From contig NZ_QGMP01000002.1 in the NCBI RefSeq assembly GCF_003259185.1, positions 62,001 to 126,000 of the forward strand: a stretch of DNA of 64,000 nucleotides, in the 5' to 3' direction. A model generated the notes under the pieces. That model was not told where the DNA came from, made no database searches, and worked only from the letters and a program-made list of their open reading frames with translations. The DNA comes from Isoalcanivorax indicus (GTDB lineage: Bacteria; Pseudomonadota; Gammaproteobacteria; Pseudomonadales; Alcanivoracaceae). Made by a program: the position numbers and the translations under genes. Each line of letters opens with the position of its first letter. The stretch's first letter is position 1. Of this stretch, positions 9,987-11,281 are shown in pieces.

Positions 9987-10107
9987 GCATCGCCCCCGGG
10001 GCGGGCAGACCCTCCCGGGACTGTGTGAGGCAGGATGCCGAACGCAAGCCCCCAGGGATGGGTTCACGGCGGGTCCCGGAAGGGTCTGCCCGCCCCGGGG
10101 GCGATGC
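9987..10107. repeat. Long inverted repeat, 35-base arms, conserved-core family copy 1
   Basis: Arms at 9987-10021 and 10073-10107 are complementary at 34 of 35 positions, and the single difference is a G/T pair. The 51-base spacer contains, on the minus strand, a core beginning CGCCGTGAACCC and ending CGTTCGGCATCC. The same core, with about five differences over 39 bases, forms the spacer of the repeat at 11163-11281, although the arms of the two copies differ. It sits just after the rpoH stop at 10133. Confidence 0.85.
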
Positions 10108-10132: not shown

Positions 10133-11008
10133 TCAGACCGCCATCGCGTTACGCAGTTTGCCGATGGCGGCGTTTTCCAGTTGGCGGATGCGCTCGGCGG
10201 ACACGCCGTACTCGTTGGCCAGGTCCTGGAGCGTGGTCTTGTCGTCGGTGAGCCAGCGCCGTTCGAGGATATCGCGGCTGCGGTCATCCAGGCTCTGCAG
10301 GGCGGAGCCGAGGCGGCGGCTGCTTTGCTGCTGCCAATCTTCGTCGGCCAGAATGTCCGCCGGGTCGCCGCCCTCGGCTTGCAGGTACTGCGCTGGCGAG
10401 ACCATGGCGCTGTCTTCGTCGTCGTCCATAGGGCCATCGAAAGAGGCGTCGTAGGCCGCCAGACGGCCTTCCATTTCCTGCACGTCGCGCACCGAGACGC
10501 CCAGATCTTCGGCGACCCGCTGGGTCTCTTCCGGAGTCAGGCGTGCCAGGCGCTTCTTGGCGCCGCGCAGGTTGAAGAACAGTTTGCGCTGGGCCTTGGT
10601 GGTGGCCACTTTGACGATGCGCCAGTTCTTCAGTACGAATTCGTGAATTTCAGCCTTGATCCAGTGTACGGCAAAGCTGACGAGGCGCACGCCGACGGTG
10701 GGGTCGAAGCGTCGCACAGCTTTCATCAGGCCGACGTTGCCTTCCTGGATCAGGTCGCCCAGGGGCAGGCCGTAGCCGGTGTAGCTGCGGGCGATATGCA
10801 CCACGAAACGCAAGTGCGACAGCACCAGGCTGCGTGCGGCGTCGATGTCATTGTCGTAGAACAGCCGTTCGGCCAGGGCGCGTTCGTCTTCGGCGCTCAG
10901 TACCGGCACGGTGTTGACGGCCTGGGTGTAGCTTTCCAGGCTGGCGCCCGGCACATTCAGTCGCAGGGCGATGTCTCCCGATTCGAATTTCTGCAGTTGC
11001 ATGGTCAT
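10133..11008 (-). CDS. rpoH: RNA polymerase sigma-32 (heat-shock) factor
   Basis: 291 residues starting MTMQLQ at 11008; a second ATG at 11002 is also possible, and GGGGA precedes both. Region 2 is intact ([55 protein letters not shown]). The RpoH box QRKLFFNLR is present, and region 4 ends with [23 protein letters not shown]. It directs RNA polymerase to chaperone and protease genes. A CIRCE element overlaps its putative promoter, and long hairpin repeats lie on both sides of the gene. It is separated from ftsX by 361 bases, so it probably has its own transcription unit. Confidence 0.97.
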
Positions 11009-11054
11009 CTTTCCCCATCTCCTGTCTGGAGTCTCTCCCATCGGAGCGACACCG

Positions 11055-11084
11055 ATATTAGCACTCGCTGCCTTGGAGTGCTAA
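11055..11084 (-). promoter_or_regulatory. CIRCE element (HrcA operator) overlapping the rpoH promoter
   Basis: TTAGCACTC (11058-11066), nine bases, then GAGTGCTAA (11076-11084) is a perfect match to the CIRCE inverted repeat bound by HrcA. On the minus strand a possible -35 TTAGCA and -10 TAATAT (18-base spacing) lie inside or against it, so a bound repressor would block transcription. The element ends 50 bases before the rpoH start. The promoter boxes are my inference; the inverted repeat is seen directly. Confidence 0.85.
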
Positions 11085-11162
11085 GAGGGGATTTTGGTTC
11101 CCCTTCATAGCCAGTGGCTATCGGGGGTTCAGGGCTTTCCATTCTTTTTGGTTCGGAGGGCT

Positions 11163-11281
11163 GGCCCTCGGGGGACGGGTAAGGGTATTCAGGACACGCC
11201 GTAAACCCGTCCGTGGGGGCTCTCGTTCGGCATCCATGCCTCTCGAAGGTCCTGAATACCCTTACCCGTCCCCCGAGGGCC
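11163..11281. repeat. Long inverted repeat, 33-base perfect arms, conserved-core family copy 2
   Basis: Arms at 11163-11195 and 11249-11281 are complementary at 33 of 33 positions. The 53-base spacer holds, on the plus strand, a core beginning CGCCGTAAACCC and ending CGTTCGGCATCC, shared with the repeat at 9987-10107. The arm sequences of the two repeats are different except for a few bases next to the core. It lies in the ftsX-rpoH gap (11009-11369), whose only other recognisable content is the rpoH promoter and CIRCE region and the small palindrome TAGCCAGTGGCTA near 11108-11120. Confidence 0.88.

Follow-up and report, generated by a model that had tools for sequence, protein, structure and literature searches.

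Textbooks treat repression through HrcA/CIRCE and activation through sigma-32 as two heat-shock routes that run side by side, a picture drawn largely from Escherichia coli and Bacillus. To our knowledge, E. coli is without HrcA and Bacillus is without sigma-32. HrcA is a repressor that GroEL keeps active and that heat releases, and in systems of the Bacillus subtilis type its CIRCE operator lies at the groESL or dnaK operons. Sigma-32 in E. coli is controlled mainly through translation and stability.

One described precedent for a connection between the two routes comes from Geobacter sulfurreducens, whose RpoH was reportedly studied by Ueki and Lovley in 2007. A perfect CIRCE at position -51 of rpoH was predicted in that species in 2004 (Rodionov et al., PMC545781, Table 8), and thus the HrcA-rpoH link itself is not new. 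The species is one of the delta-proteobacteria of that paper; its hrcA-grpE-dnaK-dnaJ also carries CIRCE, and the portion of the paper drawn on here contains no promoter superposition and no sigma-E layer (PMC545781). A second relevant system is the P3 promoter of E. coli rpoH (GAACTT-N16-TCTGA, GAACTTGTGGATAAAATCACGGTCTGA), which is transcribed by RpoE (PMC8103513). The consensus for AlgU is GAACTT-N16/17-TCTNN (PMC7641640).

The locus described here lies in a stretch of 64,000 nucleotides from Isoalcanivorax indicus, of the oil-degrading family Alcanivoracaceae; this stretch is hereafter called the window. As in G. sulfurreducens, a perfect CIRCE resides approximately 50 bp before rpoH, HrcA control is predicted, and groESL falls within the regulon (PMC545781). 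The operator consensus and the repressor family are also those of the B. subtilis-type systems, but the target in the window is a sigma factor rather than a chaperone. The gene and its operator are as follows.

10133..11008, minus strand: rpoH, encoding sigma-32 (402 bits with TIGR02392, whose cut-off is 323)
11058..11084, minus strand: CIRCE, the predicted HrcA operator, a perfect match to the consensus (18/18) with no counterpart in shuffled sequence

The start of rpoH was taken as the ATG at 11006-11008 (MTMQLQKF...), which gives the best fit to relatives, with alignments beginning at this methionine; the stop lies at 10133. The nearest named relatives are Alcanivorax, with an RpoH identity of 89% to Alcanivorax sp. 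S71-1-4. Judged by their translations, the co-oriented genes upstream resemble ftsX, ftsE and ftsY. The ftsX-rpoH gene order is common to the window and E. coli, but the ftsX-rpoH intergenic region of E. coli K-12 is without CIRCE, and HrcA was undetected in the E. coli control genome.

The element TTAGCACTC-N9-GAGTGCTAA at 11058-11084 has 0 mismatches to the CIRCE consensus, and the match at all 18 defined positions that an earlier note on this DNA had claimed therefore stands. That note had begun the element at 11055; the three bases at 11055-11057 lie outside CIRCE and complete a -10 box. The distance from CIRCE to the rpoH ATG is 49 bp on the minus strand. This is the single CIRCE site in the window when up to three mismatches are allowed, and 100 dinucleotide shuffles of the window yielded no CIRCE at that same tolerance.

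Across the whole 3.44-Mb genome, a search permitting up to three mismatches found two CIRCE sites, one at rpoH (0 mismatches) and one upstream of groES (1 mismatch). The repressor that the note's proposal presupposes is encoded in this genome: hrcA is full-length (350 residues) and scores 305 bits with TIGR00331, above the cut-off, and 9.6e-63 with PF01628. It is followed downstream by grpE and then dnaK. In contrast to the corresponding G. sulfurreducens genes, the hrcA and grpE upstream regions of this genome carry no CIRCE, and a good sigma-32 box (CTTGAAT-N14-CCCATAT) precedes grpE. Upstream of groESL there is a sigma-32 box (CTTGAAA-N14-CCCCA) as well as an ordinary sigma-70 promoter, TTGACT-N16-TATGAT, situated directly before the CIRCE. 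The groESL operator of this genome follows a separate promoter, whereas the rpoH operator coincides with predicted promoter boxes. The groESL upstream region also contains a second, degenerate CIRCE, CTAACACTG-N9-GAGTGCCAA (minus strand of L002, approximately 1501-1474), which overlaps the first and lies 23 bp on; overlapping pairs with the same 23-bp offset occur in the relatives G016 and G020.

The predicted housekeeping promoter of rpoH and the leader it would produce comprise the following features.

11055..11063, minus strand: extended -10 box TGC-TAATAT, of which the last three bases are outside CIRCE
11079..11084, minus strand: -35-like TTAGCA, formed by the CIRCE left arm, matching TTGACA at 4/6 positions and separated by 18 bp from the -10 box
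11009..11048, minus strand: predicted rpoH 5' leader of about 40 nt, deduced from the position of the -10 box

On the sense strand, the extended -10 TGCTAATAT consists of the CIRCE right arm plus three conserved bases. Its significance emerges from a comparison of 77 non-redundant rpoH sites with 37 groESL sites; because the strict groES pattern is constrained by its spacing limits and gave only 11/40 in the family, the groESL context was also drawn from the class sample. The third base after CIRCE (position 30) is T in 75 of the 77 rpoH sites versus 2 of the 37 groESL sites (P = 1.5e-24, a value that overstates independence because the compared sequences are related). This column carries 1.8 bits among the rpoH sites versus 0.1-0.2 bits in columns 31-40. 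The resulting rpoH hexamers are TAATAT (30), TAAAAT (21), TAAACT (9), TAGAAT (4) and others that are similar, whereas the hexamers usually found at the same place in groESL CIRCEs are TAACAA, TAATTC and TAACAG. Together with the TG of the right arm, the rpoH hexamer creates an extended -10 of the form TGCTAAnAT, which is TGn followed by TAnnnT. Conservation of a T outside the operator consensus is the strongest evidence in this analysis that operator and promoter are one stretch of DNA, and it fits the overlap with likely rpoH promoter boxes that the earlier note had suggested.

The -10 signature places the predicted start of rpoH transcription about 10 nt downstream of CIRCE. Since CIRCE fixes the bases of TTAGCA, its assignment as a -35 box reflects fit to the consensus, and that fit could be a side effect of the operator. 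The housekeeping promoter of this genus matches the consensus at 8/12 positions, and a generic promoter scan did not call it because TAATAT and TTAGCA each match at only 4/6.

A second promoter appears to reach into the same operator.

11095..11100, minus strand: sigma-E-type -35, GAACCA within GGGGAACCA, with GAAC conserved at rpoH loci
11073..11077, minus strand: sigma-E-type -10, TCCAA, which runs from the end of the CIRCE left arm into the spacer and is separated by 17 bp from the -35

Upstream of rpoH CIRCEs, a conserved GGGAAC keeps a constant distance (columns -16 to -11), and the spacers of these CIRCEs favour [T]AA, so that TCTAA or TCAAA results. The combination of GGGAAC, the left-arm end and the first, A-rich spacer bases creates a GAACTT-N16-TCTAA layout, which parallels the GAACTT-N16-TC..A arrangement of E. 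coli P3 in the same ftsX-rpoH intergenic region. GAAC at N15-17 spacing (-16..-14 of CIRCE) is found in 54/77 rpoH loci versus at most 2/37 groESL loci. Narrowing the spacing to N16/17 retains 47/77 rpoH loci among the relatives, and the full GAAC[CT]...TCT is present in 26/77. The boxes in the window, GAACCA-N17-TCCAA, are weak when compared with GAACTT-N16/17-TCTNN, and the match is weak in this genus as well. Given a sigma-E-type -35 at fixed spacing, an RpoE-type promoter like P3 probably also ends inside CIRCE, and this genome does encode rpoE (313 bits). Where rpoH lacks CIRCE, the AlgU consensus is present at 16/72 loci versus 2% in shuffles, a hint that the sigma-E promoter may have been the earlier of the two layers at rpoH. 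In the rpoH upstream region of Gilvimarinus (L038), a sequence that may be a decayed CIRCE (4 mismatches), TTGGCAGTC-N9-TAGTGCTAG, resides near the usual distance and is accompanied by an intact sigma-E layout, perhaps representing an intermediate in CIRCE loss.

These data could also be read to mean that HrcA binds but that the sigma-E promoter alone matters, with CIRCE tuning an rpoH promoter driven by RpoE and TGCTAAnAT unused as a sigma-70 -10. The sigma-E -35 at fixed spacing in 54 of 77 loci is compatible with this reading, as is the known action of sigma-E on rpoH P3 in E. coli (PMC8103513). However, it does not account for the almost invariant T at the third base past CIRCE, and whereas 23 of the 77 loci have no GAAC at the spacing in question, the T is retained in nearly all. 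We consider this alternative unlikely and favour a CIRCE that serves both promoters.

The distribution of the arrangement was assessed first among relatives. CIRCE is present ahead of rpoH in all same-genus relatives and in the other sampled family members whose loci were read, and it extends far beyond these close relatives. A set of 80 named rpoH loci yielded sites with 0-2 mismatches from Alcanivorax, from Ketobacter, from one Halieaceae MAG and from three more gammaproteobacterial genomes (L037, L052, L106); no such site was found in the Pseudomonas, Acinetobacter, Marinobacter and Halomonas/Vreelandella loci of this set. Larger samples were surveyed with a pattern in which the core of CIRCE had to occur at suitable distances from both a start-like codon and the conserved motif of RpoH, and the reversed pattern served as a control. 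Matches were obtained in 74/391 genomes of the order sample and in 108/369 genomes of the class sample, the latter representing 87/272 genera and more than a quarter of the sampled gammaproteobacterial species; these counts are lower bounds because core and spacing were fixed. All 13 matches in the phylum sample (13/13) fall in Gammaproteobacteria, and the approximately 210 genomes of other classes in that sample gave no CIRCE at rpoH. The reversed pattern produced 0 matches in the order, class and phylum samples.

Several simple explanations can be set aside on these grounds. A chance palindrome is ruled out by the shuffles together with the empty reversed-pattern control, and conservation rules out an oddity of this window alone. 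At the other extreme, a feature of all Proteobacteria is unsupported given zero matches in the approximately 210 sampled genomes of other classes.

The occurrence of CIRCE at rpoH also tracks that of its repressor. In the class sample, hrcA was found in 268/369 genomes, including 98/108 genomes with CIRCE at rpoH versus 170/261 without (P = 1.7e-7). Eight of the ten exceptions that lack hrcA are genomes that are 62-86% complete. When genomes at least 90% complete are considered, hrcA is missing from at most 2 of the 88 that carry CIRCE at rpoH (Fisher P = 4e-11). Two nearly complete genomes, G501 and G720, have CIRCE at rpoH with hrcA undetected, which could reflect an assembly gap or another factor using the site. 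HrcA control over rpoH, as the earlier note had proposed, is thus well supported as a prediction, since CIRCE recurs at rpoH and does so nearly always with hrcA. We regard it as highly probable that this CIRCE is a genuine HrcA operator that would repress rpoH through promoter occlusion.

As an inverted repeat of 9+9 nucleotides, CIRCE could form a hairpin, and RNA thermometers operate in the rpoH mRNAs of other bacteria. The palindrome might accordingly be thought to act here mainly as an RNA or promoter feature, such as a leader stem-loop or RNA thermometer, and not as an HrcA operator. We view this as very improbable, because the arms are kept as sequence, with no compensating pairs and with the six operator bases beyond the 12 of the search-fixed core conserved at 91-100%, and because CIRCE follows hrcA in its occurrence. 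Moreover, the -10 signature places CIRCE upstream of the predicted start, so transcripts initiated at the main promoter would not include the element.

The 170 sampled genomes that carry hrcA without the strict rpoH arrangement indicate that the link is not obligatory. Absence of the arrangement from many hrcA-bearing relatives would also be expected of a relic, in which the operator is bound but carries little regulatory weight because translation and proteolysis determine sigma-32. A relic would decay, however, whereas operator, promoter fusion and hrcA persist jointly over 87 genera, and we judge this alternative to be improbable.

Retaining the interpretation of a functional operator, the sequence evidence and established HrcA biology can be combined into a regulatory scheme. 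At permissive temperature, HrcA activated by GroEL would cover both boxes and keep rpoH expression low, such that one HrcA dimer on CIRCE would block the housekeeping promoter and the RpoE-driven promoter alike. Upon heating, unfolded protein would fill GroEL and HrcA activity would be lost. This loss would directly derepress groESL and would permit transcription of rpoH from the housekeeping promoter, or from the sigma-E promoter with envelope stress. The resulting sigma-32 would then activate grpE-dnaK, which has a sigma-32 box and no CIRCE, as well as groESL, and fresh GroEL would re-arm HrcA to close the loop. Since the main controls on sigma-32 in E. coli act at the level of translation and stability, derepression of transcription may be less important than this scheme implies.

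On balance, we lean modestly towards the view that rpoH in many Gammaproteobacteria carries a three-input switch within approximately 50 bp, in which CIRCE creates the housekeeping promoter, a sigma-E promoter ends inside it, and HrcA occludes both. The same view holds that HrcA control of rpoH is common and possibly ancestral in the class, and that E. coli, which lacks hrcA, is a derived exception. In the literature searched, we found no description of an rpoH CIRCE in Gammaproteobacteria or of its fusion with a promoter, although an earlier mention is possible (e.g. Permina and Gelfand 2003); the breadth within Gammaproteobacteria and the superposition of promoter on CIRCE therefore appear to be the new elements. 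With an HrcA site positioned exactly on the predicted rpoH promoter, two heat-shock systems that teaching usually keeps apart appear to be connected in series. Chaperonin load (via HrcA), envelope stress (via sigma-E) and sigma-32 output would all be joined in this series, which offers a concrete and easily tested prediction for culturable and harmless marine bacteria such as Alcanivorax.

The surroundings of rpoH hold one further feature. The gene is flanked by a pair of long, oppositely oriented hairpin repeats, at 9987-10107 and 11163-11281, and each has near-perfect stems of approximately 33-36 nt around a common core, GGATGCCGAACGnnAGCCCCCAnGGAnGGGTTnACGGCG. This core is present in 36 copies in the genome. 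Among the copies that were read, the stem sequences vary but self-complementarity is kept, and a few stem types are represented.
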